DNA of 64,000 nucleotides from a virus, in the IMG/VR virus record IMGVR_UViG_3300009703_004110, positions 1 through 64,000 of that record; one strand, given 5' to 3'. Positions within the stretch are counted from its first letter, which is position 1; each line of letters opens with the position of its first letter. This document shows, piece after piece, positions 26,747-48,376 of this stretch. Position numbers and translations under genes: made by a program. Below the pieces are notes generated by a model. The model was not told the DNA's origin. It was given only the letters and a program-made list of their open reading frames with translations, and did no database searches.

Positions 26747-29125
26747 TTACATCACTTTTGCAGCAAAAGTTGCTAACTTACTCCTTTCTCCCCTAACTAG
26801 GGTTATATGCCCAGAGCCTTCAAATTCTTTAAATTTGTCAACTACGACGCCCAAGCCAGATGTTTTTATGTTTAATTTATCAGAATCTATCTGGTCCAAA
26901 TCTCCAAGTAATACAATCTTTGAGTTATTGCCCATTCTTGTAATTAAAGCTTTGGCTTCTTTCATATTGATATTCTGAGATTCATCAATAATAAAATAAG
27001 TATTAGGAAGCGTTCGTCCCCTAATATAAGATAATGCTTCGATTTCAATCTGACCTTTCTCGAACATCAGATTGATATAACCACCGCCATGTTTTCCTAA
27101 TAGAACTTTAATATTGTCCATCACAGGCTGTAACCAAGGCAACATCTTTTCTTCTTTGGTTCCAGGCAAAAAGCCGATCTCCTTAGAAGTACTTTCTGCG
27201 GGACGAGATATGATTATCTTTTCATAAGTACCAGCTTGAAGCTCCTGCAAACCTGCAGCAATAGCAAGCAAAGTATTATGTGTTACAATATAATCATCTG
27301 TAATATACAGATGATCTTTGCTGTCGATCATGATGCATTGAGTCTCTTTCTTTGAAAGCTTATCGATTTTATCAATATATTTTCTAAGATTAACAGAACT
27401 CGTTGGACGCCACCTATTAGCCTTTCTTGATAATAAAAATGGACAAAATTCTTTAGAAAGTGAAATGGTTACTCTAAAAGACTCTTTACCTATTTTGGTT
27501 CTTCCTTTGTATTTATAAGTAGTAAATCTACTATTTACAGTTGCTTTGCCACCTAACGAACGAACAATTTCTGCCAAGTCATTTGCAAGCTTGGCAGATG
27601 TACTAGTAAATGTTGATTTTAAACCAGATTTGGTCACTGTGCCGTCTGTATCCATCAAGCCTCTGATTATAGACAATCTATCTCCTACGGATGATAGCTT
27701 ATAATCCTTTGGAATAAACTTATCTTCAGAACCTAAGCCCTGTAATTTAAGCTCAGATAAAAACTCTTTTAGTGGATTTGCAAAATTATTTCTTTTGTTT
27801 CCATCTTTAGTAATCCTATAATCATATTTCGAACCATTTATTTTTGAAATCTTACACCCAATTGACGGTAAGTAATCTGCAAAAAAATCTAAAATTTCAT
27901 TATCTGCCGATGATAAACATGGTGAACCAGATTTTATATATCCGTCTCCAAGTAAACATCCTAATATATATGGATCAATTTTTAACTCTTTAAAATCAAA
28001 CTCTATAGGAGATACAATTGGAATTGAGTGATTTCTTTTTCCATTTTTATTTCTCAAGGATTTTGAAATCTCTTCTAAAGATTTAACTTCACCTTTTCTA
28101 TTATAATCACGATCTCTCTGAGTTCTTGTTAGCCATAAATGTTCTATACATGACTCTGCAGATGTACCATCAGAAAATGTTATCTTATAGACATCCTTTT
28201 TTCCCTGCGGAAATACCCCAATAACATTAGCCATAGATCCGTCCGGTGTTAATACTTTACTTCCAAGCTTAATATCGCCCATTTTAACCCAACCATCTGG
28301 TGTTAAAATTCTCGAATAAAGAGGCTGCGCTTTTCCGCACCCCGCCATGCCAGTTAAGGTCACCATTGAAATACCGGGATCTAATAGCAATTCTAAAGCA
28401 AGAGTTTGCTCTTTATTTCTCGGTCTAATACCCTGAACTTTAAACTTTTTAGTAGAGCCGGCATAATGTAGCTTTCTCCAAATGCCATCTGTCCAGACCC
28501 TTGCTAGAGCGCTTTGCTGCCCTGACTTTAAAATTAAGAATTCATTTGAATAGTAGACGTCATCTAGATCAAATTCTTTCGGATCTATTTCTCCTTCTGC
28601 ATAAAAAGTATCTATAATTGACTCTTCAACCGCTAAGGTATGGACTCCGGTGAACTCACCTTCTTCTCTTTGCGCGATTAAATCTGATATACAGCAACAA
28701 TCAATCTTAAGCGCATCACACTTAACTCGTAAAGCAATATCCTCACTGACCAAGGTTACATTATCAAATACAGCCTTTGACTGCTTGGCTACTGCAATAA
28801 TTCTATTATCGACTATATCCTTCATATTTGGCGGAAGGACTGATAAATCTGATGTTGATATAACAAAGATTCTTGAATTATTTTGGGTAATGACACCCTT
28901 AAAAATACTTCCAGTCTTTCTTAGCGCATCAAGCCTTCTATTTACCTGCCTCGCTGAGGCGCCAGTGACATCTCTATATGTTTTAAGTTTGTCAAGCTCC
29001 TCCAAGACTTCTAGTGGAATATAGATGTCGTGGTCTTGTATGACATCTGTTAGTTCTGGAAACGCTATAAGTGATGAGGTATCAACTACTAAAATAGCCC
29101 TTCCTAATGCTGAGCTTTTACTCAT
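26747..29125 (-). CDS. phoH: PhoH-like ATPase with N-terminal PIN domain, split by an intein
   Basis: The N-terminal 150 residues form a PIN-type RNase domain (ILVVDTSSLIAFPEL, conserved acidic residues). The C-terminal part is a PhoH ATPase with Walker A GMAGCGK^T and FIIDESQNI as Walker B. The intein (residues 266-617) is inserted between the Lys and Thr of the P-loop, so the host protein is about 440 aa, the size of PIN-PhoH (YlaK-type) proteins. Proposed role: RNA helicase/nuclease. PhoH is common in phages but its function there is unclear. An intein in the P-loop means ATPase activity depends on splicing. Confidence 0.9.
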   Translation of the reverse strand: MSKSSALGRAILVVDTSSLIAFPELTDVIQDHDIYIPLEVLEELDKLKTYRDVTGASARQVNRRLDALRKTGSIFKGVITQNNSRIFVISTSDLSVLPPNMKDIVDNRIIAVAKQSKAVFDNVTLVSEDIALRVKCDALKIDCCCISDLIAQREEGEFTGVHTLAVEESIIDTFYAEGEIDPKEFDLDDVYYSNEFLILKSGQQSALARVWTDGIWRKLHYAGSTKKFKVQGIRPRNKEQTLALELLLDPGISMVTLTGMAGCGKAQPLYSRILTPDGWVKMGDIKLGSKVLTPDGSMANVIGVFPQGKKDVYKITFSDGTSAESCIEHLWLTRTQRDRDYNRKGEVKSLEEISKSLRNKNGKRNHSIPIVSPIEFDFKELKIDPYILGCLLGDGYIKSGSPCLSSADNEILDFFADYLPSIGCKISKINGSKYDYRITKDGNKRNNFANPLKEFLSELKLQGLGSEDKFIPKDYKLSSVGDRLSIIRGLMDTDGTVTKSGLKSTFTSTSAKLANDLAEIVRSLGGKATVNSRFTTYKYKGRTKIGKESFRVTISLSKEFCPFLLSRKANRWRPTSSVNLRKYIDKIDKLSKKETQCIMIDSKDHLYITDDYIVTHNTLLAIAAGLQELQAGTYEKIIISRPAESTSKEIGFLPGTKEEKMLPWLQPVMDNIKVLLGKHGGGYINLMFEKGQIEIEALSYIRGRTLPNTYFIIDESQNINMKEAKALITRMGNNSKIVLLGDLDQIDSDKLNIKTSGLGVVVDKFKEFEGSGHITLVRGERSKLATFAAKVM
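27275..28330 (-). mobile_element. Intein in PhoH (class 3-like, LAGLIDADG)
   Basis: The intein spans residues 266-617 (352 aa). It starts with Ala (AQPLYSRILTPDGWV) and ends VTHN before Thr. It lacks the usual Cys/Ser at position 1 but has Trp in EHLWL (block B), Cys in TQCIMID (block F) and Thr before the terminal His-Asn (block G), the WCT set of class 3 inteins. Two dodecapeptide-type motifs, LGCLLGDGYI and IRGLMDTDG, mark a LAGLIDADG homing endonuclease. The insertion site is the P-loop GCGK^T. Confidence 0.85.
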
Positions 29126-29510: not shown

Positions 29511-32500
29511 TTAAAACTCTATAGTGCATGTGGCCCCATCACAAAACTTGTCCTCTTTCTCGTGGACGCTAAAGCTTAAATCAATATCTTTTAGATTGCT
29601 AGATAGTTTCAAGTATTCTTCTCTAGAAATAGTCTCGTAAGGTGCCAATTTATATCCGTGGTCATTCAATGGTAGGAAACTTATGGACTTTAGTCTGGTC
29701 TCATACATAGAAAGTGCTGTAGAAATTTGCTTAGCCTCAGTCTCGTTGAATGTAATTGTGGCAGAAACTTGATTATCAGCCCAGTATCTTTGCATCTGAG
29801 CTACTAACTCTAATTGCTCCCACATACTAGCATCATACTTAGACTTAACAAAATTCTCTATGTAAATAGGAAAGTCAACGACCATAGAGTCTGGTTGATA
29901 AGGGCATGGGTTTACCTGATGTCCTGCCTCAATACATGCCGGAATAATAGGAGAGTCTTTCTGAATTCTAATTCTTCTAATATAGTATTCGCTATGATCA
30001 AAATGAACACCAGGAGAAACACCTGGCAAGAGAGAGACTGTACCACTCGGCTTAACAGATGTCATTTTAATAGAGCGAGGTACGCAAAGCCAGTCGCTAT
30101 ATTTCTTGTCCAATCCTCTAATTCTATCGTATCCACTATCACACCATTCCATATGAGCACGGTACCCAACTTTTGCAATATTATTTTGGATACCAGACTG
30201 AGAGCAACCAATTCTTCTATTACGCATCATTACCGCATTAGTACGTGGGTCGTGCGTTGGAAGTAGTGTGACCGTTTTGGCATATAAATATGCGTACTTA
30301 AGGGTCGCCAGATAATCCTCAAGGCTTTCGTGATTAACAGGGAAGGTCTCGACTAGACAGCATAACTCAAAGCTCTCTAGCGTTTGCTCAGAACAGTTGT
30401 GAACAATAATTCCATTTGCCCCAAATCTATGTACTTCATCAATAGTACAATCATATACCTTTTCAATACCAATATAAGTAACCGACTCTACTTCTGCAAC
30501 AAATCTTTCTCTATTTAGAGTTCGTCTATAATCATTCATTCTAAGTCGTAATTTATCATTTCTTTCCATTTCATCAAAATTAATCTGTAATAAAAAGTGT
30601 GATAAATTATCATTACTAATTACTAATTCATGCATAGCATTACATTCATATAGTTTATATCCACTTTTTCCATCTGGTAGCAACCGCTTTCCAGCTTCGC
30701 GCCTATTTCTATAAACTGTTGAATTAACTCCAAAATTAAGTAACATTTTTTGAATAATTAATAAATGCTGCTCGTTTGCTAATCCTATTCTAACCGAAAG
30801 TCCCTTGGTTTGAGTGCCCTGAACTGAGCCATCTGCATCAAAAAAGCCACGTAAAAACCCTGCTTGAAATTTAGATGATGTACATAATAAGGTGCTTTCA
30901 TTTATTATATTTTTTTCATGATCAATTCCATAATCTATTGCTTTTTCCCAAAGTTGCCGACTTTTAATTGAGACCATATCTTTTGAATCTATATTACACC
31001 CATTTCTATTAGAGTGATACCTAGGATCTCCCCCCAAGGTCTTTGTTCTTTCTATAGCAAGATTAAGCATATCATTTTTTGTAGATCCCCAATATTGCAA
31101 AATTCCTGATTTTTGCTCTTTATGAAAATATCCATCTCCTAGCAAGCCACCCAATAACCATCCTTCATTAAATGAGCCATCGCCTTCCCAGCTAATAAGA
31201 TTATTTTCATTATATCTTGTGTCATTTAATATCAACTTATCACCAGCATCTAAATCACCAGCTTCTACCCATAATTCATATCGCTTTTTTCTTGTAATTT
31301 TTGGAGCAGTTAATATCTTGTGATCTTCGGTTACTTTAATAGAATGTCCTTCTTTTGTTTTAACCAAATATACTGGCTTTGTTCCTGTTTCAAAAACACC
31401 GGTTTTACAGTTATATTTTTTTCCATTGACTATAGCTATAAATGGTTTATCAAGCATTTCATCTGCTCTAACAGGTCCTTCTTCTGTAAAAATTAAGGTA
31501 TCTCCGGTAATACATGGGTTGGCACCCTCTGCTCTCCTATCTTTCCAGTTAGGTGGCTCCATCATACGACCGTAAGCTCTAGCGTTATGAAGCCACATAA
31601 ATCCAGGCTCGCCATTTACTTTGATCATATCAGCAAACTTAGAATAATCTATCCCAATTTCTGCAAAAATAGAATTATTAGAGGCCCAACGACGATCTTC
31701 TAAGGCTTCTTTGTTAAGTTTTAAAGATCTAAACTCTTTATCTTCGGGAGATCCGAACATAATTTCGGCAATTCTGCGCACATTACCTGCAACAACACAT
31801 TTGCCGACATAATTAAAGATGTCCACAATTTGTGTTGAATTAATCTCATAAGGTGTGAACTCTTGTATCTCAATAGAAAAAGATAAAGGCTCTGGGCGTT
31901 CTGTTTCTGACATAACTGTAGTAGGTGTAATTTTAGTATCGTTTGGTACCAAAACAGAGATTATATTCTCATGCAAATTTCTTAATGGGCCGGCACCAGA
32001 CGCAGTTCCACCGAATCCTCTAATTGGGGCTCCGTATGGTCTAATTTTAGAATAATTAAAAACTGGAATAGAGCCTCTTCCGACAAAGGCATCCAATAGA
32101 ACTCTAACAGATTCTACCCAGCCTTCTCTTGTGTCAGGGATTACCCATTCCGCCTGTGCCATTTTCGGTGTTTTAATAGTAACAAGGCCGGCACCTTTTA
32201 CATCTCCACCGACACCAACTCCAAGCATTGACATATCCATAAGAAACGTAAATGGTGAGGCAAAGTCTGATGAAATATCCTTAGTACTTGTGAAAGCGCA
32301 ATTATTTAAAGCAGCACTTCCCATTTTCCATATTTGAGGAACCCCCATCATCCAAAGTCCGCGTCCTGGTGGAAGAAATTTAAACTCCCACATTCTAGTA
32401 AACATTTCTTGAGCACTTCTTTGTGATTTATGAGCATTCCAAGGCAGCCTTAGTCTTTCACAGTGTGACCTCTGAATATTATAAACACCTTCAACAACTC

Positions 32501-32675
32501 TTTGGCAAGTTTGCCAAAATTCTTCGGTTCTCCCGGACTCTTCATCAATTACTCTAGCGTAAGTTCGCTTATAAGTAACATATCCGAGCGGGCCCCACTT
32601 CGGTTGCTGGTCTATAAAGTTCGACATGAACTTGGTAGACAGCTTAAACGGGTTCGCTGGAAAAGACAGCATCAT
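29511..32675 (-). CDS. nrdJ: Class II (B12-dependent) ribonucleotide reductase, split by an intein
   Basis: The extein is 681 aa, like monomeric adenosylcobalamin-dependent ribonucleoside-triphosphate reductase. Readable motifs: LNNCAFTST (redox Cys), NP^CSEQTLESFELC (radical Cys and Glu), the PSGTVSLLPGVSPGVH loop, and the C-terminal CDGATC pair. Reaction: reduction of NTPs to dNTPs using adenosylcobalamin, independent of oxygen. The intein occupies 388-760, at the active-site Pro-Cys. GGAGG precedes the start. The end of the sigma-like gene overlaps by 32 nt. It supplies the dNTPs for the replication genes elsewhere in the window. Confidence 0.92.
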   Translation of the reverse strand: MMLSFPANPFKLSTKFMSNFIDQQPKWGPLGYVTYKRTYARVIDEESGRTEEFWQTCQRVVEGVYNIQRSHCERLRLPWNAHKSQRSAQEMFTRMWEFKFLPPGRGLWMMGVPQIWKMGSAALNNCAFTSTKDISSDFASPFTFLMDMSMLGVGVGGDVKGAGLVTIKTPKMAQAEWVIPDTREGWVESVRVLLDAFVGRGSIPVFNYSKIRPYGAPIRGFGGTASGAGPLRNLHENIISVLVPNDTKITPTTVMSETERPEPLSFSIEIQEFTPYEINSTQIVDIFNYVGKCVVAGNVRRIAEIMFGSPEDKEFRSLKLNKEALEDRRWASNNSIFAEIGIDYSKFADMIKVNGEPGFMWLHNARAYGRMMEPPNWKDRRAEGANPCITGDTLIFTEEGPVRADEMLDKPFIAIVNGKKYNCKTGVFETGTKPVYLVKTKEGHSIKVTEDHKILTAPKITRKKRYELWVEAGDLDAGDKLILNDTRYNENNLISWEGDGSFNEGWLLGGLLGDGYFHKEQKSGILQYWGSTKNDMLNLAIERTKTLGGDPRYHSNRNGCNIDSKDMVSIKSRQLWEKAIDYGIDHEKNIINESTLLCTSSKFQAGFLRGFFDADGSVQGTQTKGLSVRIGLANEQHLLIIQKMLLNFGVNSTVYRNRREAGKRLLPDGKSGYKLYECNAMHELVISNDNLSHFLLQINFDEMERNDKLRLRMNDYRRTLNRERFVAEVESVTYIGIEKVYDCTIDEVHRFGANGIIVHNCSEQTLESFELCCLVETFPVNHESLEDYLATLKYAYLYAKTVTLLPTHDPRTNAVMMRNRRIGCSQSGIQNNIAKVGYRAHMEWCDSGYDRIRGLDKKYSDWLCVPRSIKMTSVKPSGTVSLLPGVSPGVHFDHSEYYIRRIRIQKDSPIIPACIEAGHQVNPCPYQPDSMVVDFPIYIENFVKSKYDASMWEQLELVAQMQRYWADNQVSATITFNETEAKQISTALSMYETRLKSISFLPLNDHGYKLAPYETISREEYLKLSSNLKDIDLSFSVHEKEDKFCDGATCTIEF
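30396..31514 (-). mobile_element. Intein in RNR (class 1, LAGLIDADG)
   Basis: The intein spans residues 388-760 (373 aa). It starts with Cys1 (CITGDTLIFTEEG), has a block-B His (EDHKIL), and ends VHN before Cys+1 of CSEQ. LAGLIDADG-type motifs are LGGLLGDGYF and LRGFFDADG. Splicing restores the active-site Cys. This insertion point is a known hot spot in class II RNRs. Confidence 0.9.
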
Positions 32676-33198
32676 TAGCCTCCATATAATCTTTTACTTT
32701 TTGTATTGATCTCTTTTTTAGAATACGCACACGCTCGACAGACACGTTCAGCTCTTGGCTTATTGAGGTTAGAGTGTGCTCTTCGAGTAAAGACATGTAT
32801 AATATTTTTTGTTCTCTATTCGAAAGCATTTTGCAACTTAAAACCTCTTTTACCAGCACAACATTTTCCTGCCATTTTACATTCAAACCGCTAAGATTAA
32901 TAGACTTCAGTGGTCTGTATTTTTTCTGAAAGTCTCTACTTGCATTAGCAAAATGCCAGTTGGACCATCGGTAAAAGTCAAAATGTCTATGGCAGTCAAA
33001 AGTTTTAATGGAGGTCCAGAGGGCCAAGTTAAATTCCTGCTCCAAATCCTCCACATGAGAAAAACTTCTAAATTTTTTTATTCTACTAATAACAAGTGGA
33101 CGCAGTTTCAAAAACAGATCTGCCTGCCATTTACTAGAAGTACCGTTAGCGTTGTCTGAGAATATGCTATGAACCTCATGATTACTCAAGAGAGACAT
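32644..33198 (-). CDS. Sigma-70-family-like RNA polymerase sigma factor
   Basis: I chose ATG 33198 (AAGGA upstream). The protein is 184 aa. Region 2-like sequence lies at about 40-100 (LRPLVISRIKKFRSFSHVED, then LEQEFNLALW and FDFYRWSNWHF). Region 4 helix-turn-helix lies at about 125-165 (LSNREQKILYMSLLEEHTLT, then SISQELNVSVERVRILKKR). Region 3 is missing, as in ECF-type or phage late sigma factors. It would direct RNA polymerase to phage promoters. It is followed by RNR and preceded by the DAC-like gene. Confidence 0.72.
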   Translation of the reverse strand: MSLLSNHEVHSIFSDNANGTSSKWQADLFLKLRPLVISRIKKFRSFSHVEDLEQEFNLALWTSIKTFDCHRHFDFYRWSNWHFANASRDFQKKYRPLKSINLSGLNVKWQENVVLVKEVLSCKMLSNREQKILYMSLLEEHTLTSISQELNVSVERVRILKKRSIQKVKDYMEANDAVFSSEPV

Positions 33199-33199
33199 T

Positions 33200-33751
33200 T
33201 TATTCCTTATCTTCGCCTTGTCTGTATTGCTCAGTGAACGCGCCATCCTTCCACATTCGGACAGTTAGTGTTTCTTCTGACAATGTAAATGTCGCAACCA
33301 CATCATCCCGTACAGAGAATGAGGCCGCAGATATATGTCTCGTGCCGCTTCCTTCCGGTATTTCTAAGGATGGCTCTTCAACGGTTAGATATATTCCAGT
33401 GCCAAGAATTTGGCCATTATGATTAATTACAATGGCACCGTCATCTCCGCTTTCAAAAATCTTATCCACCTCTTGATCAAATTGTCCAAAAGCAACATTC
33501 ATATACTTTTGAATTAGATTCTTGCCAAGCTGGCGCATACCAGGTACGGCGTGATCATGATATCTATCAAAGGCTCCTAGGACCACTAAAACCCCGATGC
33601 GCTTTCCTTTCTTTTGCAAATTATCAGCTAGAGAGCACATCAAGGAATATATTTTCTTTTCCGATCGCTCTCTTGCCATGTTAAATTGATATGAGTAATC
33701 TACGTGTGGTTCTTTACGAACTGTTACATTTGTTTCAGCAGATTCAGCCAT
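33200..33751 (-). CDS. DAC (diadenylate cyclase)-like domain protein
   Basis: This 183-aa protein has the DAC pattern: DDGAIVINHNGQILGTG (DGA at 104-106), then EGSGTRHISAASFSVRDD (RH at 138-139; the usual third Arg of RHR is Ile) and FTLSEETLTVRMWKDG. These motifs bind and position ATP in c-di-AMP synthases (DisA, CdaA, DacZ). The Arg to Ile change leaves activity uncertain. Residues 1-45 form a charged helical lead. It lies between the sigma-like factor and the SpoVR gene, overlapping neither. c-di-AMP or another signal is inferred. Confidence 0.68.
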   Translation of the reverse strand: MAESAETNVTVRKEPHVDYSYQFNMARERSEKKIYSLMCSLADNLQKKGKRIGVLVVLGAFDRYHDHAVPGMRQLGKNLIQKYMNVAFGQFDQEVDKIFESGDDGAIVINHNGQILGTGIYLTVEEPSLEIPEGSGTRHISAASFSVRDDVVATFTLSEETLTVRMWKDGAFTEQYRQGEDKE

Positions 33752-33762
33752 GATATCTCCAA

Positions 33763-35205
33763 TTACTTTTTAAAGGTTACGTTATACTTTTCGTCCTCTT
33801 CATCATCTTGTATGCTGAGACCAAGCTCATCATAAGTATAATGAATTGTCTCACCTTCATTATCGACAGTTTCTAGGTTTATAATCCCTGGCCAGATATC
33901 ATGTATATACTCTAATACATTTTCAACGTGCTTAGGATCTAACGTACCAATTTGTCCACTCTTGTGCTCTAGCTCGATGCCCATAGCGGAGGCCTTACTT
34001 ATTGCGATAATGGGGGCACGGTAGTTGTAAATACCCCTTGCTATATATTCTACCACGTCCTCTACATCCGTACTTTTAATTTGTATGATTTTCTCTTTTG
34101 CTCGGTTGTAACCCTGCTTATAGACGAACATCTTAAGCTTGTCGACAATGGCCTGTGTCAGATAATTTCTCAAGAAGGAAATATCGTCTTCATCTTCTAC
34201 TATCTGAAGTATTTTTTGCAGCCCCGTTACGTCTGAGCTGCCTGCTTTATACATTCTATCCCATCGCTCTCTAACGTCATTTAAGATGGTGAAGCCCAAA
34301 AAGTATGGATTTATATTAAGCTTATTGCTACCTGGTTGAACAACACGTTCATGAATCTTGACAAACTCAAGATACTCGTGTGGAGATAATTCATCATCAG
34401 AAAGCAGATACATTAATTCTGCATGAATGAAGCTGGCAAAACCTTCATTCACAATCTTAGTGCAGTACTGAGGATAGAAGTAAAAGGACTCTTCTCTGAT
34501 GATCTCAAATATATCTCTTTCCCATGGTTCTAAATTGGCATAATTGGCGAAGAACCAAAGAAGGTCCTCTTCTGGTCGCGGAGGAAACTGGTCATTCTCA
34601 ACCACCTGCTTAAAAGAAGGCTCCTTGTCAAGCCCGAACATATCGTCAAACTCGTTCTCTTTTCTTTTTTTCCAGACTTTCTTTCGACCCTCATATGGCT
34701 TTCTATGTATATCTCTCTTCCAGTTAATATTTTTGTCCATAGCAAATGCTGTGTCCATAATTCTTTCAACTGTATCAAGACCATACTTTGTAATATATTC
34801 CTCTACTCTGGCTGCTCGCTCTGCTGCATGATAGACCATCTTGCGATCTGTTTTCTTAAACAAATAGTTGTTCTTAAAGAAGTGCACGTGCCCTATGACG
34901 TGAGCAATAACCATTGTATTTGCGATGTTACTGTTAGATTCGAGCAAGAATGCATAGGAAGGGTCATTGTTGAGCACAAGCTCATAAACCTTAGACATGC
35001 CCATCTCACCCTGAGTCTTCTGATACTCATAACTTTGACCATAAGACCAGTGACGAGCCCTAGTGGGAAGACCATAGCTCATAATTTCTAGCATTACTTC
35101 TTCCGGTACAACTTCCCACATAATCGGGAAGAAATCTAACCCAAGATCCTTCTCGGCCGTTTCTTCGAACATTTTGGTTCGTCTGGCTAAAACTTCATTC
35201 ATCAT
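33763..35205 (-). CDS. SpoVR/YcgB-family protein
   Basis: This 480-aa protein is full length compared with YcgB (about 510). It shows family features: LDFFPIMWEVVPEEVMLEIM near the start, an HVIGHVHFFKNNYLF His-rich segment, EGFASFIHAELM, and VVQPGSNKLNINPYFLGF. In bacteria SpoVR-type genes co-occur with YeaH (DUF444) and PrkA; the trio is tied to stress, nutrient and sporulation responses, with unclear biochemistry. It overlaps the 169-aa gene by 11 nt. Residues of possible metal binding (HExxH-like) are not clear. Confidence 0.88.
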   Translation of the reverse strand: MMNEVLARRTKMFEETAEKDLGLDFFPIMWEVVPEEVMLEIMSYGLPTRARHWSYGQSYEYQKTQGEMGMSKVYELVLNNDPSYAFLLESNSNIANTMVIAHVIGHVHFFKNNYLFKKTDRKMVYHAAERAARVEEYITKYGLDTVERIMDTAFAMDKNINWKRDIHRKPYEGRKKVWKKRKENEFDDMFGLDKEPSFKQVVENDQFPPRPEEDLLWFFANYANLEPWERDIFEIIREESFYFYPQYCTKIVNEGFASFIHAELMYLLSDDELSPHEYLEFVKIHERVVQPGSNKLNINPYFLGFTILNDVRERWDRMYKAGSSDVTGLQKILQIVEDEDDISFLRNYLTQAIVDKLKMFVYKQGYNRAKEKIIQIKSTDVEDVVEYIARGIYNYRAPIIAISKASAMGIELEHKSGQIGTLDPKHVENVLEYIHDIWPGIINLETVDNEGETIHYTYDELGLSIQDDEEDEKYNVTFKK

Positions 35206-35704
35206 CTAGCTCCTCATCAAATAGGTCAAGGAAGTCCTTGGTTGACATATTTCTTGTCTCATCTAAAAATGTATCAAAATCTGCACCGCCACGTATCTTG
35301 GTACCACTATATATAATCCTATCTAAAGATTTTGGTACTGGTACGCCATTAGAGTTGGGACTTAATGACGTGTATTGCATCTTCTTATTAAAGACATCCA
35401 TGTGGTAGATCAATTCATTACGAATATAATCTGGGCACTCATCAAAAACCTCTTCAAATGGTATAGTGACATATCTTATCGACGCTCTTGCACTATTTCT
35501 CAAAGCTTTTCTGCCAACAGCGGTAGATTTATCTACCTTATGAGGCCCAGGCGCCCTTCCAACGACCTTTTTCTTCCATATAGCTCCATCTCTTCTGATG
35601 GTTACAATGAAACCTGTATGCTTTAAGGTGAATTCTCCTCTTTCCAGAGAGATTGGAGTTAATAGCCCTGTTTTAAAAGCCTTTTTAACTGCCTCAGACA
35701 TCAT
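35195..35704 (-). CDS. Hypothetical 169-aa protein in the SpoVR-YeaH-PrkA set
   Basis: The N-terminal half is basic and beta-rich. Residues about 75-110 (VTIPFEEVFDECPDYIRNEL then IYHMDVFNK) match the C-terminal module of the 105-aa protein at 3336-3653. The C-terminus is acidic (FLDLFDEELDDE). I know no counterpart in bacterial yeaG-yeaH-ycgB operons. It is wedged between SpoVR and DUF444 by 11- and 4-nt overlaps, suggesting that it works with them. Confidence 0.6.
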   Translation of the reverse strand: MMSEAVKKAFKTGLLTPISLERGEFTLKHTGFIVTIRRDGAIWKKKVVGRAPGPHKVDKSTAVGRKALRNSARASIRYVTIPFEEVFDECPDYIRNELIYHMDVFNKKMQYTSLSPNSNGVPVPKSLDRIIYSGTKIRGGADFDTFLDETRNMSTKDFLDLFDEELDDE

Positions 35705-36915
35705 GACTTTACTTTTCTTCTTCGCTTCCTAACAACTCGTTTCTTTTTATTAGAAACATCATCTATATTGAAGAACTTTTTAAGAGCGTCAAAAACATCA
35801 TCACGTTCTTGAAGTCTAAGTGTAACATACCTAGTTCTGGTGATGCCTTTATCTAAGATATCTGATAGTCTATCATGATTATTAAACCATGCACTTTCTC
35901 GTTCTACATTTGGAATTATCTCTCCGTATCCTATTGCCCTACACATAGGAAGAAGTCTTTTGACATATTCTAGGCAAATATTATTATCATTTCCCCAGTT
36001 ATCACCATCACTGAACTCAATTAAATAGTTATTCCATCTATCTGGCGGATGATGTGATGACATATGTTCATAAGCAAGCTTAAAGGCTGAGCTGCACTGA
36101 GTTCCCCCCGAAGAGTTAATGGAGAAGAACCTTTGCTCGGTTTCAATCCAGGCCTTAGAATCATGGGCTATAAAGACTATATCTATTTTTTTGTATCGTC
36201 TTCTTAAGAATTGAACCATCCAAAAGAAAAAGCTTTTTGCGATGTGCGTCTTCTCTTCACCCATAGATCCTGAACGATCCATTAGAAGATAAACAGCGGC
36301 ATTAGAATGGTATTCTTTAGTAACGTCCCACTCTCTGTACCTAAAGTCATCTTGGTGAAACTCACCTACTTTGGCATCGCCTTTAGCGGCGTTTCTAATC
36401 AGGTTCTGTATTAGAGTTCTTTTGATATCAAGATTTGGCATAATGCCTTTTTTCTCAATAGAGGAAAACTCTTCTAATTCTGACTCAATCTGGGTCGCAC
36501 CTTTTGGCTCCATCCACGGTAAATCTAATTCTTCCAGGAGAATATCGACCACTTCGTTGATTGACACTTCTGCATCGTAATACTTTTCCCCATCTTCATT
36601 ACCGGCGCCTTGGCCCTTACCTTGTTGACTCGGACCTTTGCCTATCTTATATTTATCGCCCTTTTTGCCATCAAGACCTTGTCCAACCTCCTGGTTGTCT
36701 TTAATTCTGCCATATTTAAACCTATATCTGTCAAGATACTTTACCGGTACTTTAATTTTCTTATCGCCATCGGATCGTATGACATCATATTCTGTGATCA
36801 GGTCTTTACCATTTTTACGAATAGCGCGCTTAACCAGCTCTTTATGTCGAGCTGAGTCTCGCTTACCTCGTCTTTTCAACTTCCATATATCAGAAAGGCT
36901 ATCATACTTTGGCAT
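35701..36915 (-). CDS. YeaH/DUF444-family von Willebrand A protein
   Basis: This 404-aa protein has the family's N-terminal basic helical region and a C-terminal VWA domain with MIDAS motif DRSGSM (213-218), a Thr in SSGGTQCSSAF, and an Asp in EFSDGDNWG. E. coli YeaH is about 427 aa. Its partner is the kinase-like PrkA (YeaG), encoded just upstream with 2 nt between. A metal-dependent adaptor role is presumed. It overlaps the 169-aa gene by 4 nt. Confidence 0.9.
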   Translation of the reverse strand: MPKYDSLSDIWKLKRRGKRDSARHKELVKRAIRKNGKDLITEYDVIRSDGDKKIKVPVKYLDRYRFKYGRIKDNQEVGQGLDGKKGDKYKIGKGPSQQGKGQGAGNEDGEKYYDAEVSINEVVDILLEELDLPWMEPKGATQIESELEEFSSIEKKGIMPNLDIKRTLIQNLIRNAAKGDAKVGEFHQDDFRYREWDVTKEYHSNAAVYLLMDRSGSMGEEKTHIAKSFFFWMVQFLRRRYKKIDIVFIAHDSKAWIETEQRFFSINSSGGTQCSSAFKLAYEHMSSHHPPDRWNNYLIEFSDGDNWGNDNNICLEYVKRLLPMCRAIGYGEIIPNVERESAWFNNHDRLSDILDKGITRTRYVTLRLQERDDVFDALKKFFNIDDVSNKKKRVVRKRRRKVKS

Positions 36916-36917
36916 TA

Positions 36918-38822
36918 TTAGTTCCGTGCCATTAGAGAGCTAACGTAACGTAGAAGCTGGTTGGCGCTTGCCGCTGTGTATCCATGCTTTTCGCATAAGA
37001 CTTCTACTACTCCATTAACTCTTTTTAGCTCATTAGCATCAGGGTTTCTAGAACTTACGGTCAATCTAATTACATCCTGTCTCTCATCAAAAAGCTGCTT
37101 CTCTAAAGCCTCACGGAGATGTGGGTGATCTTGGTAGCGATATTCGCCATGATTTTTGAGGGAGCGAAGCATTTTTCTATAGATCTCTTGGCGGAAAGAG
37201 GTTTTGCCATTTTCAGATATCTGAATCTTCTCCTCAACGGAGCGCATTAGTCTCTCATCTGGCTCAGCAGGATTGCCCCACTCATCTTCTAGCTCAGTTC
37301 CATCTAGGAAAGCCTCCACTTGCTCTAGGTAATTCTTCAGAAGATTGCCGATTTCCTGTTCGAAGTTAACAAAGAAAGCCTTCTGAACGTCGTTACGGGC
37401 CATCTTGTTGTACTCTTCAATAATTAGAACCAATAAGGCCTCCAGCCTTTCAGTTTCAGCTCTGTCAATCTTGGGATTAGATTCAAACCCGTCCCTCAAT
37501 GATCTTACGATATCGATTGGAGTAACGAAGGTCTTGCCGTTAGCCAGTTCGGATGAGATACGATTGATTACATATCTCGGTGAAATACCTGACATTCCTT
37601 CGCTAGCGAATTCGCCCTTGAACTTACCGCTCTCTGAAACAGTAAAGCCTTCTACTTCCTCACCGTTGTAAAGCCTCATTTTGTTCAGTAGGGTTAGTCC
37701 TTGATTTGAAGATGTCTTTAGGCGAGATAGAACCGCCAACATTGCGGCACACTTTAGGGTATGCGGTGCAAGATGCCTCTCTCCAAAGTTTGCCTGCGAG
37801 ATTAGCTTCTCATAAATCTTGACCTCTTCGTCAACCTGAAGATTATATGGAACTCTTACCACGATTGTTCTGTCATGAAGCGCTTCCATTTCATCTTTTG
37901 CCAAGAATCGGTTATATTCTGTCTCATTAGTGTGAGCTAAAATGAACTCGTCTGCATAAATTAATGGAAATCTTCCAGTCTTAATGTTCTTTTCTTGTGC
38001 TAAGGTTAGAAGAACATACAAGAACTTCTGATCAACCTTTAGCATCTCTACGAACTCCATCATTCCTCGGTTGGCTACATTTAACTCTCCGTCAAATCTG
38101 TAGGCTCTAGGGTCTGATTCTGCTCCATAAGTCCCAATAGTACTCAGATCTAATGAGCCAACTAATTCGGAGATATCTTGGCTCTTCTTATCTGATGGTA
38201 CAAAGGTTCCGATGCAAGCTCGGTCTAATTCTGAAATAAAGACTCTGCGCACTGGCATAGAGAGGAAGTCACCGTCATATTTCTCTTTCAGGTGCAATGC
38301 CATGAGCGGGCTCAATTGGCCTTGTATATTTACGCCGTATCGGTCTTTGAAAGTTTGTCGTAACTCGACTGGGATGGCCGTTAACGGATCTTCGTACATT
38401 GGTGAATCTTCTAAGGCGTAAAGTGCGCCGGCGTCTGTTTTGGAGTAGGCCTCCAATCCTCTTTTTAGCAAAATAGCCAACTGTGATTTACCCGATGATG
38501 TTGGTCCGTAAAGTAGTAATATTCTTCGGCCAACTTCACTCCCAGCCGCGGCAGCTCTAAGATAAGACATAATATGTTCAATTGGAACATCAATACCAAA
38601 CAAATCTTCTTCAAAGAAATTATAGCTGGTTATATTACCATCATCATCTTTTTCAACACCATGAGATTCAATCATCTCTAAAACTCTCTGGTGTGCGTTT
38701 TTATGAAGGCCTGGATTTTCAGTAATTAACTGAACATAATCCTTTAAAGTTCCTTCCCATGCTGTTACGTCGTTATGTTCGACGTGACTTTGCAATAATT
38801 CAAATAGTTCAGTCTCAGCCAT
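36918..38822 (-). CDS. prkA: PrkA/YeaG-family serine protein kinase (AAA+)
   Basis: I chose ATG 38822 (GGAGATAGA upstream), giving 634 aa against about 640 for E. coli YeaG. Walker A GPTSSGKS is at 106-113, followed by the PrkA-specific AAA+ segment (MYEDPLTAIPVELRQTFKDR) and a C-terminal kinase-type region. PrkA proteins phosphorylate themselves and target proteins and, with YeaH and SpoVR, act in starvation and stress responses. The strong length conservation argues for a working enzyme. It is the first gene of the leftward trio. Confidence 0.92.
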   Translation of the reverse strand: MAETELFELLQSHVEHNDVTAWEGTLKDYVQLITENPGLHKNAHQRVLEMIESHGVEKDDDGNITSYNFFEEDLFGIDVPIEHIMSYLRAAAAGSEVGRRILLLYGPTSSGKSQLAILLKRGLEAYSKTDAGALYALEDSPMYEDPLTAIPVELRQTFKDRYGVNIQGQLSPLMALHLKEKYDGDFLSMPVRRVFISELDRACIGTFVPSDKKSQDISELVGSLDLSTIGTYGAESDPRAYRFDGELNVANRGMMEFVEMLKVDQKFLYVLLTLAQEKNIKTGRFPLIYADEFILAHTNETEYNRFLAKDEMEALHDRTIVVRVPYNLQVDEEVKIYEKLISQANFGERHLAPHTLKCAAMLAVLSRLKTSSNQGLTLLNKMRLYNGEEVEGFTVSESGKFKGEFASEGMSGISPRYVINRISSELANGKTFVTPIDIVRSLRDGFESNPKIDRAETERLEALLVLIIEEYNKMARNDVQKAFFVNFEQEIGNLLKNYLEQVEAFLDGTELEDEWGNPAEPDERLMRSVEEKIQISENGKTSFRQEIYRKMLRSLKNHGEYRYQDHPHLREALEKQLFDERQDVIRLTVSSRNPDANELKRVNGVVEVLCEKHGYTAASANQLLRYVSSLMARN

Positions 38823-38823
38823 T

Positions 38824-39120
38824 CTATCTCCGATATTTGTATGGATTTGGCGTATCGCCATATATAGAGTCTATAGTGTTTTGGTTGCCAGCCTTTATTT
38901 TGTCTACAGTTTTTCTAACGCCTTCTTTGATTTCGTCGATTATCTCGGAAGAATCTTTGTCGACTTTATTGGAAATACTGCCTAGCTTATGAAATAGTAC
39001 CCCGTTCTCGCACTGCGAACACTCTTTTTTTTCTTTCTTCTTTTTCACGAACTCAGATATGGTCATGTTCTGAGTGCCTATAAAATCACATTCTGAGCAT
39101 CCAAAAGTATATTTAGGCAT
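38824..39120 (-). CDS. FmdB-like zinc-ribbon protein (98 aa)
   Basis: The start at ATG 39120 (MPKYTFGCSECDF) fits the FmdB-type zinc-ribbon beginning MPxYxxxCxxC, with the second Cys pair in KKECSQCENG. The C-terminal half is charged. The function is probably regulatory or nucleic-acid binding, as in other zinc-ribbon proteins. It overlaps the upstream 62-aa gene by 8 nt and precedes prkA by 1 nt. Confidence 0.6.
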   Translation of the reverse strand: MPKYTFGCSECDFIGTQNMTISEFVKKKKEKKECSQCENGVLFHKLGSISNKVDKDSSEIIDEIKEGVRKTVDKIKAGNQNTIDSIYGDTPNPYKYRR

Positions 39121-39301
39121 CGTCTTCTTCGTCCACAAAGATCATATCCGTACCCTCAACTTTTAGATTGCCAGATAGTGATAAATCCCTAAGTAATTGC
39201 TTTTTAAACTTTGGATCAGTAATTAAAATTGTTACCTCTAAATCCTTAGTATCAGGACGAAAAGATAAATTTTTAATTTTCCCAATAACTTTCTTCTTCA
39301 T
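39113..39301 (-). CDS. Hypothetical 62-aa protein
   Basis: This is a small beta-rich protein (KKKVIGKIKNLSFRPDTKDL, then EVTILITDPKFKKQLLRDLS) with an acidic tail EEDDA. No family is recognised. It overlaps the neighbours on both sides (8 and 29 nt). Confidence 0.55.
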   Translation of the reverse strand: MKKKVIGKIKNLSFRPDTKDLEVTILITDPKFKKQLLRDLSLSGNLKVEGTDMIFVDEEDDA

Positions 39302-39581
39302 TAAAAGCCTTCTCCAATGCTGCGATTATATCTTTGTGTTTTAGTCCAACTAAATACATTAAGTTATCGACTTCGTTCTTTGTTATCCTATTATACCCAA
39401 TTATTTTTGTTCTTGGTATGGAAATTCTTCCGATCAATTCAGTAATAAGCTCGGGTTGATCAAATTTAAACAGAGGCAATACCTCAACGTGACTTTTCTT
39501 ATTGGACAAAACGATTGCGATGAACTTAGTATCTTCAAGTTCGATGCTGACAAATTCGTGTTTATCAAACGTCATTTTCAT
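39273..39581 (-). CDS. Hypothetical 102-aa protein
   Basis: I placed the start at ATG 39581 (MKMTFDKHEFVSIELEDTKF), inside the last codons of the helicase gene. It is a mixed beta/alpha protein with IGRISIPRTKIIGYN. No domain is recognised. It overlaps the helicase by 17 nt. Confidence 0.55.
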   Translation of the reverse strand: MKMTFDKHEFVSIELEDTKFIAIVLSNKKSHVEVLPLFKFDQPELITELIGRISIPRTKIIGYNRITKNEVDNLMYLVGLKHKDIIAALEKAFNEEESYWEN

Positions 39582-40923
39582 CACCAATTTCTTCTGCCCA
39601 GTCATCAGGCACACTCAAAATTCTGGATTTTGTAAAGTCTTTAAGCAAAGAGAGCTTGCCCTTTTTGCCGTCCCTATTTTTAACAACATGGACCGCCATA
39701 TCCTCCCTAAGGTGCTCTTCATCTCGTTTTTCGATTAGCAAAACAATGTTGGCATTATCACCAATCATCTTAGAACGAGCCAAATCCTCCAGATCGTTGC
39801 CAGGGTCTTTTGCGTTCTTATTTCTTGCCTTCCTCTGTGATGCAGTAATTACTGGAACATCTTTTGCTCTCGCAAACTCAGCCATATTTTCAGCAATATA
39901 CCCTAGATCCAGCCAGTCAGAATTATTTATGCTGTTTGGCTTCATAATTCCAAGATAGTCTATGCACACTAGGTCTGGCTTGAATTCTGCTATAATAGTA
40001 TCATACCTGGCCTCTATATCTGTCATCTTTGAGCCACGAGGCATGTCACAGATGTATAGGGTCTTATCGTATTTACTCTGAAAGGTAAGCGTGCTTCTCC
40101 ATCTTTCTTTCTCTTGAGCAGTAAGCATTCCTCTAACAAGATGCTTATGTTCCATTCCAGATATGCAAGCGTCTATTCTCTGCTCGGTCTGTGCTTTGGA
40201 CATCTCTAAAGTGAAGTAAAGAATATTGGCGCCATCCTTTTTGACTGGGGCGCCATGCAGAGGGTTGTTAGTTCCCAGCCAAGCATTTATTCCTATATTT
40301 AGCATCAGCATTGACTTACCAGATGACGATGGTCCTGCAATAATCATTAGCTCTTGCTTTTTGATACCCCAAATATATTCGTCAACTTCGCGATAGCCTG
40401 TCAAGACACCAGAGACTTCTCCCGGATTTGCCTCAACATACTTATAAGCTTCCAGCCTATCTTTTGCGGAATCTGCGAAGTTTCCTTCTGCAAATACTGC
40501 GCTTCTTTTCATTCTTTCAATTTTGGCACCGATTCTCAAAACTTCAGTTTCAAAATCTTCAGCGTCAAATTCGTCTTCATCGACTGAAACAGATTCTGCC
40601 AAAGCTCTAGCTAAGAACGCTTGGTATCTTTTTTTGATTTCATCGACGTGAAATCCGACCTCTGCCTCTACACACGTAGATTCTCTAATGACTCCTATAA
40701 GTTCAATGTGATCAATATCATCTAATAAACTTTCTTCCATTAATTCGAAAGTAGGAGGAGACCTGTATCTTTTAAAATAATCTCTTACGGTCCTAGCAAT
40801 GGGCTTATAATTTGGCAACATTGCTTCGATCAATAAATTAGTATCGATCATTCTTGAGACTTGATTGAACTCAATCGGACCCTTCATCATATAATTGATG
40901 ACCTTTCTTTCTCTCAAGGACAT
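39565..40923 (-). CDS. dnaB: DnaB-like replicative helicase
   Basis: This 452-aa protein has a helical N-terminal domain and a RecA-type motor with Walker A GPSSSGKS (197-204), Walker B VCIDYLGIM, and an R-finger-type C-terminus. It unwinds DNA at the fork, powering 5'-3' movement. GGAGAAAGTAA precedes the ATG but lies inside the end of the upstream endonuclease gene (10-nt overlap). The loader gene is 1.4 kb upstream, separated only by that endonuclease gene, so the normal loader-helicase pair has been interrupted. Confidence 0.9.
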   Translation of the reverse strand: MSLRERKVINYMMKGPIEFNQVSRMIDTNLLIEAMLPNYKPIARTVRDYFKRYRSPPTFELMEESLLDDIDHIELIGVIRESTCVEAEVGFHVDEIKKRYQAFLARALAESVSVDEDEFDAEDFETEVLRIGAKIERMKRSAVFAEGNFADSAKDRLEAYKYVEANPGEVSGVLTGYREVDEYIWGIKKQELMIIAGPSSSGKSMLMLNIGINAWLGTNNPLHGAPVKKDGANILYFTLEMSKAQTEQRIDACISGMEHKHLVRGMLTAQEKERWRSTLTFQSKYDKTLYICDMPRGSKMTDIEARYDTIIAEFKPDLVCIDYLGIMKPNSINNSDWLDLGYIAENMAEFARAKDVPVITASQRKARNKNAKDPGNDLEDLARSKMIGDNANIVLLIEKRDEEHLREDMAVHVVKNRDGKKGKLSLLKDFTKSRILSVPDDWAEEIGDENDV

Positions 40924-45548: not shown

Positions 45549-45854
45549 TTATATCAGTCCAAGCTTCTTGATTAATTTCTGAGCGTCTTTTGAAACTTTT
45601 GCGTGTACTTTTGCCGGATCAAGAAACGGACCCTTAGAGCCCTCTCTGATGCGTATAACGTCCATCGCTAAAACATAAAATATATAATCAGTTCCAAGCA
45701 ATTTATACCTGCCTTTCCACTTTGGAGCCGCTCCATATCCGGCAGTTACATCTTTTAACCTAGTAAATAACTTCGAATCATTAATTGCTCTTTGAGCAAT
45801 GGATACTGAAGGCTTTCTTTGTCTGCGTCTCGCACCTGCGCCAAAAATACTCAT
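45549..45854 (-). CDS. Hypothetical 101-aa basic protein
   Basis: The start is basic (GARRRQRKPSVSIAQRAIND). A central domain reads GYGAAPKWKGRYKLLGTDYI. No family is recognised. It overlaps the helicase stop by 4 nt (ATGA). Confidence 0.55.
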   Translation of the reverse strand: MSIFGAGARRRQRKPSVSIAQRAINDSKLFTRLKDVTAGYGAAPKWKGRYKLLGTDYIFYVLAMDVIRIREGSKGPFLDPAKVHAKVSKDAQKLIKKLGLI

Positions 45855-48316
45855 TTCTCGTTCCTCTTGATTTTGAAACCAGGCTCTGATGAATATATTC
45901 TGTATCTAGCCTGACTATGTTCTCTTAGATATTTACAGTTATCATAGAAGTCTACAACTGCTGCATTGATCTTTCCTTCATTACGTCTGATAACTCTTCC
46001 AATTCTTTGAAGAGCCCTGGCCGTCGACTTACCGGAGCCGGCCAAAATAAGAGCGTCTAACTCAGGTATGTCAATGCCTTGGTCAAAAATACGAGAAGCA
46101 ATCATGACATCTAAATCCCCGTCTCTCATCTGGCGGATAGCCTTCATGCGGTCCGCTGTGGAATTCATACCGTTGAGACTATTGACCTTCAAATTGGGAT
46201 CCAAAAAATCTTGAATCACTTTTCCGTGGTCAACCTTCGTCACCAGAATCAAAACCTTTCTTCCGGCATCTGACATTTTTTTAGCAACTTCTGCAATTTT
46301 GAAATTTCTATAATCATTGTTAACAATAAAGTTATTGTATACTTCTGGATAAGTTTTGCCAACGCCCCTGATTGTTGGAATGTTTATAAATGTAATGTAC
46401 GGCCTTACTAACCAGTTGGTGTCTATTAGTTCGGTCGCAGTAATGTCACAAAATTTTGGCCCGCTAACAGCTTCTATCAGAATGTCGTCGCCATTTTCTC
46501 GCCACGGCGTACCCGAAAGCAAGAACCTATGTCTAGCGGAAGCTGACTCTTTATGAAGAAACTGCACTGTCTCGGCCGCTGCATATTGGCATTCATCAAG
46601 AAAGAAAAGCTCTGCAGATCGGACAAGGTCTTTGACCGCCTCTCTCTTTTGCATATTCTTTGTAAGTGCCTTGCCCTTCGTACTATCTGAATCTAAGAGC
46701 TTAACTTTCTTGTTGAATGCCGAAGCAGCAGACCATATGGTTACAATGTTAATCCCATCCACTATGTCACATTGTCCATCGCCTACGATTCCACACTTTA
46801 CGCCAAGTGATTCTTCTATGGTTGACTTCATTTGATACAGTAATTCTTTTCCAATAACATAAACCACTGTTTTGACATTGTAATGTCCGGCGATCATCGC
46901 AATGACCAGAGATTTACCAGAATTATGTGTTACTGTAAAGTCGTCTAATAAATATCTATTATCTCCATCTACTTGGAATCCAAAATACTCTTGAACCCCG
47001 GCTTCCTCATAGGAAAAGTCGGTCCTTAGTACGCTCTTCTTCTGAAGTCGCTTCTTAGCACGCTTTCTTGCTAGTTTTGTTGGAATAATACTGCAGTCTC
47101 CAGATATGCTAACTCTAAAATATGTTCCAGTAAATCCAGTCGTTCTAATGCTCTTTTCGCATTTTTTTATATAAGCGGCTAGGCCGATACTTCTGGATAA
47201 GAAGCATACATCTTCAGCTAATTTTTTTGATTTTGATATATAATCAAATCCACCGTGCGACAAAGATCCATCTGAATCTAATAATCCTGCCAATATAGCG
47301 AGCCTATCTATTTTAGAGGCTGTTTTGTATTTTGCCGGAATATACTTATTTTTAGAGCCTAACCCAAGAAGTTTTAAATCTCGTAACTCATTTCTAAGTT
47401 TATTTTTATACTTACCACTTCCTTTAAAATAGTAAGTTATCCCGTTCTTTCTTATTTCTAAATTATATTTTTTTGCTATAGTGTGTATATAATTTGATAT
47501 AACCTCATCTGCTGTCGTTATTCCAACCTGACCTTTTAAGCTTCCATCACCAAGCAAAAGACCTAAAAAATATGGATCGGTAGCCAACTCTTCCCTTGCT
47601 TTAAAATCAATTGGTACCCTGAATAATTTATGAATATGCTTAAATGTCTTACTTTTATTCTCCCAATCAGAAAACTTTATATCTATTACATCGCCATTAA
47701 ACTTATTATTTATAGTTTTGTTTGTTCTTTGTAACGACAAAACATGTTCTTGGTTTATAATAAAACTATCGCCCTTTACAGGGTTTATTTTAACCATTCT
47801 GTCAGTTCCGGCACAAAGCTTTAGAACCATTCTAGGGGCACTATCCGGTCCCATTAGGCGATCACCAACCATGATATTTTCTACGGCTTTAATAGAGCCG
47901 TCATACATTAAAATCCCTTGGCCTTTAGCATGGCACCCGGTAGCTGCACGTAGGATTCCGCTTTCGGCTTTGATTGCCGCTTCCACAGCAGATATCTGAT
48001 AGTCTCTCGGAATAAAAACACTGCTTGGGTCAATAGCTATCGAGCTTCCATATTGTAAAGGATCACGCTGATCCACTATCTTATATTTGTACTTATTAAC
48101 TTTTAGGATGTTCTCAACCACATGAAGCATACCGATTGGGAATACACCATTTCTCTTGTTAAAGAGGCGGTATCTTCCGTCCCATCCAGTATGCTTTTTC
48201 ATGAACTGATAACTCTGCACCATATAACTAAGGTGCTTGTCAAGCTCACGCAGGACCTTCCCATCAGACAGGCCTGTTAGCTGACACTTTGAGTTATTTA
48301 CATAAATAGTGAGCAT
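45851..48316 (-). CDS. UvsW-like superfamily II DNA/RNA helicase, split by an intein
   Basis: I chose ATG 48316 with GGAGAACGC upstream (a GTG at 48349 is the alternative). Motor motifs: GILRAATG^SGKSLVIAM (motif I), FFLDECQY (DECQ motif II), LLSGTPWRE (motif III), and QRIGRVIRR (motif VI). An N-terminal domain resembles phage UvsW helicases. Without the intein (338 aa) it is about 480 aa, close to T4 UvsW (587) or smaller relatives. It likely acts on recombination or replication branch structures. Confidence 0.85.
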   Translation of the reverse strand: MLTIYVNNSKCQLTGLSDGKVLRELDKHLSYMVQSYQFMKKHTGWDGRYRLFNKRNGVFPIGMLHVVENILKVNKYKYKIVDQRDPLQYGSSIAIDPSSVFIPRDYQISAVEAAIKAESGILRAATGCHAKGQGILMYDGSIKAVENIMVGDRLMGPDSAPRMVLKLCAGTDRMVKINPVKGDSFIINQEHVLSLQRTNKTINNKFNGDVIDIKFSDWENKSKTFKHIHKLFRVPIDFKAREELATDPYFLGLLLGDGSLKGQVGITTADEVISNYIHTIAKKYNLEIRKNGITYYFKGSGKYKNKLRNELRDLKLLGLGSKNKYIPAKYKTASKIDRLAILAGLLDSDGSLSHGGFDYISKSKKLAEDVCFLSRSIGLAAYIKKCEKSIRTTGFTGTYFRVSISGDCSIIPTKLARKRAKKRLQKKSVLRTDFSYEEAGVQEYFGFQVDGDNRYLLDDFTVTHNSGKSLVIAMIAGHYNVKTVVYVIGKELLYQMKSTIEESLGVKCGIVGDGQCDIVDGINIVTIWSAASAFNKKVKLLDSDSTKGKALTKNMQKREAVKDLVRSAELFFLDECQYAAAETVQFLHKESASARHRFLLSGTPWRENGDDILIEAVSGPKFCDITATELIDTNWLVRPYITFINIPTIRGVGKTYPEVYNNFIVNNDYRNFKIAEVAKKMSDAGRKVLILVTKVDHGKVIQDFLDPNLKVNSLNGMNSTADRMKAIRQMRDGDLDVMIASRIFDQGIDIPELDALILAGSGKSTARALQRIGRVIRRNEGKINAAVVDFYDNCKYLREHSQARYRIYSSEPGFKIKRNEK
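46922..47935 (-). mobile_element. Intein in helicase (class 1, LAGLIDADG)
   Basis: The 338-aa intein begins with Cys1 (CHAKGQGILMYDG), contains INQEHVLSL (block-B His), and ends VTHN before Ser+1. LAGLIDADG-type motifs LGLLLGDGSL and LAGLLDSDG mark a homing endonuclease. It splits the Walker A P-loop (ATG^SGKS), the same functional site as in PhoH, though in a different protein family. Confidence 0.9.
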
Positions 48317-48376
48317 GCGTTCTCCATACCTAGATTTTACTCTAGGCACGAAGAAATGCTTGAATTTATATGTAAA

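Follow-up and report, generated by a model that had tools for sequence, protein, structure and literature searches.

A giant-phage lineage encodes a complete and intact version of the bacterial stress-survival gene trio PrkA–YeaH–SpoVR within a conserved phage operon, joined by a short soluble diadenylate cyclase (DAC)-like protein that is a new element specific to this phage clade. We analyzed a 64,000-nucleotide stretch of DNA (the window) comprising positions 1 to 64,000 of IMG/VR virus record IMGVR_UViG_3300009703_004110, a record of 332,270 bases designated G000 here. Window positions 29.5–41 kb form a single tight minus-strand operon in which neighboring genes overlap or sit a few bases apart, in the order DnaB, p113, p62, p98, PrkA, YeaH/YhbH, p169, SpoVR, DAC-like, sigma and class II ribonucleotide reductase (RNR, with an intein). 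A sequence-only reading had described positions 32644–38822 as a stress-signaling cassette containing a sigma-like factor, a DAC-like protein, SpoVR, YeaH and PrkA together with a 169-residue protein (p169), and all of these genes are indeed present there on the minus strand and tightly packed. Chance is excluded as the source of the cassette matches because family E-values range from about 1e-12 to 1e-115 (1e-10 for sigma) and cassette gene order is preserved in relatives that are 66–80% identical.

The trio proteins are complete and retain their family motifs

The core proteins are intact, with scores well beyond their Pfam family cut-offs, and the earlier description of a complete trio of near full-length proteins holds, with conservation in relatives as well. 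PrkA combines an AAA_PrkA domain (PF08298, 384 bits) and a PrkA C-terminal domain (PF06798, 222 bits), each against a cut-off of 25 bits, and carries a Walker A motif GPTSSGKS at residue 119, AHTN at 309 and DRT at 330 (numbered in the long open reading frame), which together place it in the PrkA family. This reading frame spans 38861–36918, and a start at 38822 is preferred because relatives begin there. YeaH contains a DUF444 domain (PF04285, 287 bits, cut-off 27) with an intact metal-site (MIDAS) signature of DRSGS at 213, GGT at 270 and SDGD at 302. It also matches NCBIfam TIGR02877 (spore_yhbH) with an E-value of 7e-111, and the score of 370.9 bits against a cut-off of 468 marks it as a relative of YhbH and not a certified equivalog. 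SpoVR scores 353 bits against PF04293 and retains the conserved AHxxGH and EGxAxxxH motifs of its family. In SpoVR alignments of 26–28 rows, H102, H106 and E254 are invariant and H261 is nearly so, a pattern suggestive of a metal site. An AlphaFold model of SpoVR (predicted local distance difference test score, pLDDT, 87.5) found no significant structural match in the Protein Data Bank (PDB).

The genes of the operon are as follows:

39565–40923, minus strand: DnaB-like replicative helicase; upstream neighbor, conserved in the clade
39113–39301, minus strand: p62, small protein conserved in the clade
38824–39120, minus strand: p98, small protein upstream of PrkA, conserved in the clade
36918–38822, minus strand: PrkA, AAA+ ATPase with PrkA C-terminal domain (PF08298, PF06798, Walker A)
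35701–36915, minus strand: YeaH/YhbH, DUF444 von Willebrand A (vWA) protein (PF04285, TIGR02877 match, MIDAS motifs)
35195–35704, minus strand: p169, a real open reading frame without an accepted family
33763–35205, minus strand: SpoVR (PF04293)
33200–33751, minus strand: DAC-like, short soluble diadenylate cyclase-family protein (PF02457, predicted fold)
32644–33198, minus strand: sigma-70-family factor with regions 2 and 4, of variable presence in relatives
29511–32675, minus strand: class II-type RNR with an intein, at the downstream operon end

Inteins usually settle in conserved functional motifs. In several relatives they interrupt PrkA at LAHT/NE and SpoVR at AHV.GH and EGFAS, which points to functional importance of these motifs. 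Insertions of this kind are distributed as follows (labels beginning with L denote fetched viral loci):

SpoVR, intein-like insertions: L011–L015, L017, L023, L024, L032
PrkA, intein-like insertions: L032, L035
Other window genes, intein-like insertions: RNR (29511–32675), PIN-PhoH (26747–29125), UvsW-like helicase (45851–48349)

Homing endonuclease genes are lodged between cassette genes in L011, L012, L014 and L017.

The trio occurs in several separate phage clades

A profile scan identified PrkA in 334 viral contigs, and all three trio genes are present in 98 of the 112 viral loci examined, ordered PrkA–YeaH–SpoVR in 82 and YeaH–SpoVR–PrkA in 16. The sequence-only reading, which had suggested such a profile search, knew of no described phage system of this kind; for the trio this does not stand, as it is already known in phages and is not new here. 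The trio is annotated in Thermus phages phiYS40 (YS40_056/057/059) and TMA and in later ones, and PrkA and SpoVR are both listed in a paper on a Ralstonia jumbo phage (PMC8504454).

In a tree of 150 PrkA proteins, built by a quick method with long branches flagged, the window's relatives form one clade (support of 100) that is distinct from several other phage groups. The closest relative of the window, represented by L011/L012, has a PrkA 80% identical to the window protein. Clade-wide gene order is DnaB–p62–p98–PrkA–YeaH–SpoVR–(DAC)–(sigma)–RNR. Thermus phages phiYS40, TMA, phiLo, MN1 and Lalka8/27 carry the same three neighboring intact gene families, but their PrkA is 33–38% identical to that of the window, the order is YeaH–SpoVR–PrkA, the neighbors are different, and no DAC was found in the records searched. 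Huge phages LR756511, LR745206, LR756502 and LR756504 and related IMG/VR contigs also share the trio, mostly close together (SpoVR is distant in LR756502), but belong to separate PrkA clades and have no DAC in their whole records.

In cells, prkA–yhbH/yeaH–spoVR stand together in many loci, often in the same order. The trios of Bacillota, Planctomycetota, Myxococcota and others comprise the same families as the window, but are chromosomal and have no DAC beside them in 80 cellular loci. Among the cellular PrkA proteins found, those of Bacillota come nearest (48–50% identical), and the window YeaH resembles Bacillota YhbH; these likenesses hint at the source of the genes and not at the host. 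Three IMG/VR contigs (L028 and the similar L029 and L030) carry a Bacillota chromosomal-type PrkA, which for L028 clusters with Gottfriedia in the tree, and are probably host flanks of prophages.

That several distinct phage clades have the trio, and that inteins sit in its key motifs, suggests that it is useful within a single infection. Phage trios also provide compact versions of the gene set, and the culturable Thermus phages provide test material.

A DAC-domain protein accompanies the trio in the window's clade

The DAC-like protein belongs to a family of 180–210 residues found in 18 fetched loci, with about 13 distinct sequences besides that of the window. On every contig long enough to show it, the gene comes directly after SpoVR; the exception is L031, in which a YpsA/SLOG-family protein separates the two. 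In the deeper clade members L022, L023, L026 and L035 a YpsA-type SLOG protein replaces DAC between SpoVR and sigma. When whole records were searched, all 10 DAC-clade records contained DAC, and the 19 records of other trio phages lacked it. The window protein scores 47.6 bits against PF02457 (cut-off 27) and all 12 members tested match, bearing out the earlier observation that a DAC-like protein joins the trio. The gene is an addition of the window's lineage. Against the DacZ equivalog model NF041371 (NCBIfam) it reaches 42.8 bits (E-value 4e-11), below the cut-off of 430. An AlphaFold model (pLDDT 77) matches CdaA, DacM and DisA in Foldseek with E-values of about 1e-6, probability 1.0 and template modeling scores of about 0.5–0.67, and a profile search of PDB sequences returned only diadenylate cyclases as top matches. 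The gene is under purifying selection, with nonsynonymous differences (pN) of 0.27–0.38 versus synonymous differences (pS) of 0.65–0.74 and a synonymous rate (dS) near saturation.

Across 12 members the DGA (104), GTRH (136) and SEE (158) motifs are invariant or nearly so; D104 and G105 are invariant, and A106 is replaced by serine in one member. The phage protein thus shares the DAC fold, DGA, GTRH and SEE with CdaA, DisA and DacZ, but lacks their membrane or DNA-binding parts, has lost the last arginine of the RHR motif, and has a one-residue insert before SEE. Its closest plasmid relatives are haloarchaeal DACs. Short proteins of this group (183–186 residues; for example WP_014030783 and WP_276249215) are of the same length, consist of a DAC domain alone and, like the phage protein, have a TLSEE/TLSAE strand with the extra residue before SEE and no RHR, but are 23–26% identical to it, and several lie beside ion-transport genes and not beside a trio.

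Pattern scans for close relatives, whether cellular or single-sequence, returned nothing, as did a comparison of the model with BFVD. Matches in a phage collection obtained with a divergent member as query were rejected since they look like host cdaA contamination: all four records opened are marked UNVERIFIED, and the host cdaA–cdaR–glmM arrangement is clear in three (OR845009, OR846790, MT835502). Among the open-access papers searched, none was found to describe a diadenylate cyclase from a phage.

A possible remodeling machine coupled to an adenine dinucleotide

We tentatively propose, with a confidence just short of even, that the trio is a phage-owned remodeling machine for stressed hosts, coupled in this lineage to an adenine-dinucleotide synthase or sensor. 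The proposal builds on the anatomy, intactness, conservation, co-location, purifying selection and predicted fold described above. PrkA would form the AAA+ ring of an ATP-driven machine, YeaH/YhbH would serve as its vWA metal-site adaptor, and SpoVR would be a partner with a probable metal site. Bacterial PrkA is described as an AAA+ ATPase needed for sporulation and salt tolerance; its enzyme activity, as a kinase or otherwise, is disputed, and the purified protein has no detectable kinase or protease activity (PMC13001217). A PrkA relative has a solved structure (PDB 9xip). MoxR–vWA chaperone pairs known in jumbo phages likewise join an AAA+ ATPase to a vWA partner, but have MoxR in place of PrkA and a fused metallopeptidase in place of SpoVR (PMC7824862). 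As the locus lies between replication and nucleotide genes, we infer early or middle expression, and the trio would be made alongside replication and nucleotide-synthesis genes and not with virion genes. It may keep a starved or osmotically stressed host productive, in the way that the cellular trio serves non-growing bacteria. The DAC-like protein most likely makes or binds an adenine dinucleotide, cyclic di-AMP (c-di-AMP) or a close relative, through which the phage could set or read the potassium and osmotic signal of the cell while the trio acts. c-di-AMP is a potassium and osmotic messenger in many bacteria (PMC8573169), which makes an osmotic or starvation link between trio and DAC plausible. 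The bolder form of the proposal, in which the giant-phage lineage encodes an active cyclic-dinucleotide synthase (for c-di-AMP or a new adenine dinucleotide) that acts with the AAA+/vWA/SpoVR machine to steer the stressed host, is held at well under an even chance. If the enzyme is active, this phage would produce a bacterial second messenger; phages are known more for degrading or sequestering signals of this kind.

Several points weigh against this proposal. PrkA–YeaH–SpoVR is a widespread gene set for which we know of no established biochemical job even in bacteria. Most phages with the trio have no DAC, which the trio can therefore do without. A candidate phosphodiesterase of the DHH-DHHA1 type, described below, also occurs in some trio phages that lack DAC. 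Finally, a complete RHR motif is absent from the phage DAC-like proteins: the window protein has RHI, and RHI, RHT or RHK is found in 12 of 12 members.

The last point bears on a rather unlikely alternative, that the DAC-like protein has lost catalysis and acts as a nucleotide-binding subunit, a sensor or a sink for host signals, for example within a trio complex. All 23 cellular bacterial DACs compared keep RHR, and in M. tuberculosis DacA changing RHR to AAA abolishes ATP binding and activity (PMC3328451). The YpsA/SLOG protein that occupies the DAC position in some trio phages has a fold often tied to nucleotide ligands, as would suit a binding role. Against loss of catalysis, the phage protein keeps DGA, the threonine and arginine of GTRH, SEE and the predicted fold. 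Haloarchaeal DacZ-annotated proteins, with RHH at this position, also lack the last arginine, so such loss occurs in another natural branch, and the DacZ family makes c-di-AMP. By its motifs, the DAC-like protein may or may not be catalytic.

It is unlikely that the trio instead serves virion assembly, as proposed for the MoxR–vWA pair of other jumbo phages, and leaves host physiology alone. The AAA+–vWA logic is common to both systems (PMC7824862), and Thermus phage Lalka8 carries its trio with portal/minor head genes on one side and terminase genes on the other. In the window's clade, however, it lies between DnaB and RNR, away from virion genes, and the window phage also carries a separate MoxR-like ATPase and vWA protein, read by eye from the sequence at G000:C1 224,358–226,634 (224–227 kb).

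A counter-defense role is improbable, one in which the DAC-like enzyme would refill the cyclic-dinucleotide pool so that Panoptes-type guards stay untriggered as the phage depletes immune nucleotides. Panoptes uses 2′,3′-c-di-AMP, whereas the product known from DAC-domain enzymes is the 3′,3′ form; the DAC-like gene sits in a replication operon and not in a defense island; and no anti-CBASS protein turned up, although no search was aimed at one. What speaks for this role is that Panoptes/mCpol systems kill upon a drop in c-di-AMP (PMC12657218, PMC12657230).

An origin of the region as host DNA, or as a recent capture now decaying, would have ended the sequence-only reading, and is refuted: PrkA and YhbH do resemble the Bacillota type, but a conserved phage operon encloses the genes, which are 48–50% identical to the nearest cellular sequence found, group in a clade of phages alone and evolve under purifying selection, leaving this explanation next to no probability.

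Other genes of the operon and the genome

Two genes that the sequence-only reading counted in the cassette prove to be less firmly attached to it. p169 is a real open reading frame, but its homologs are confined to L011/L012 (43% identical), and we rejected it as a part of the module; no accepted family was found for it, and its sub-threshold GTP_CH_N match was judged to be an effect of chance or composition, as was a weak PPR-type match. The sigma factor is present, with regions 2 and 4 both passing their Pfam cut-offs, and its frame opens at 33246 with a likely start at 33198, right behind the DAC stop codon. It is missing at this position in about half of the clade (L013, L014, L016–L018, L020 and L032), and a second sigma is encoded at 205 kb of the same phage genome. 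We therefore rejected it as a dedicated partner; it is probably a transcription factor of the phage whose gene is transcribed together with the module. The RNR slot is itself variable, as in L016, L018, L020, L025 and L032 the gene after DAC or SpoVR, read by eye, is a different, class I-like RNR, with the small subunit present in some of these loci.

Elsewhere in G000, a DHH-DHHA1 protein (C1 229,647–230,480), a candidate oligonucleotide or c-di-AMP phosphodiesterase, is encoded beside adenylosuccinate synthetase. Each of the four DAC records longer than 300 kb (G000, G025, G026, G037) has such a protein, which is only suggestive of a DAC-linked c-di-AMP phosphodiesterase. Two RelA/SpoT-type HD (HD_4) proteins at C1 295,111–295,659 and 315,561–316,319 are candidate alarmone hydrolases; genes of this type are widespread among large phages, whether these encode DAC or not. 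The adenylosuccinate synthetase gene (L264, about C1 231,414–231,560) has a 29-nucleotide interruption right after its GLCWG codons, beginning with an in-frame TGA and containing a strong GUUGACCC-UUCG-GGGUUAAC hairpin, and the gene is uninterrupted in three related phages (GDEAKGK or GDEGKGK). The insert could be translational-bypass-like, a sign of decay or an assembly error. Within the window, positions 49003–50424 encode a PhuZ/TubZ-like tubulin (PF00091, 57 bits) with a TubZ-like C-terminal domain, comparable to those of spindle-forming jumbo phages.

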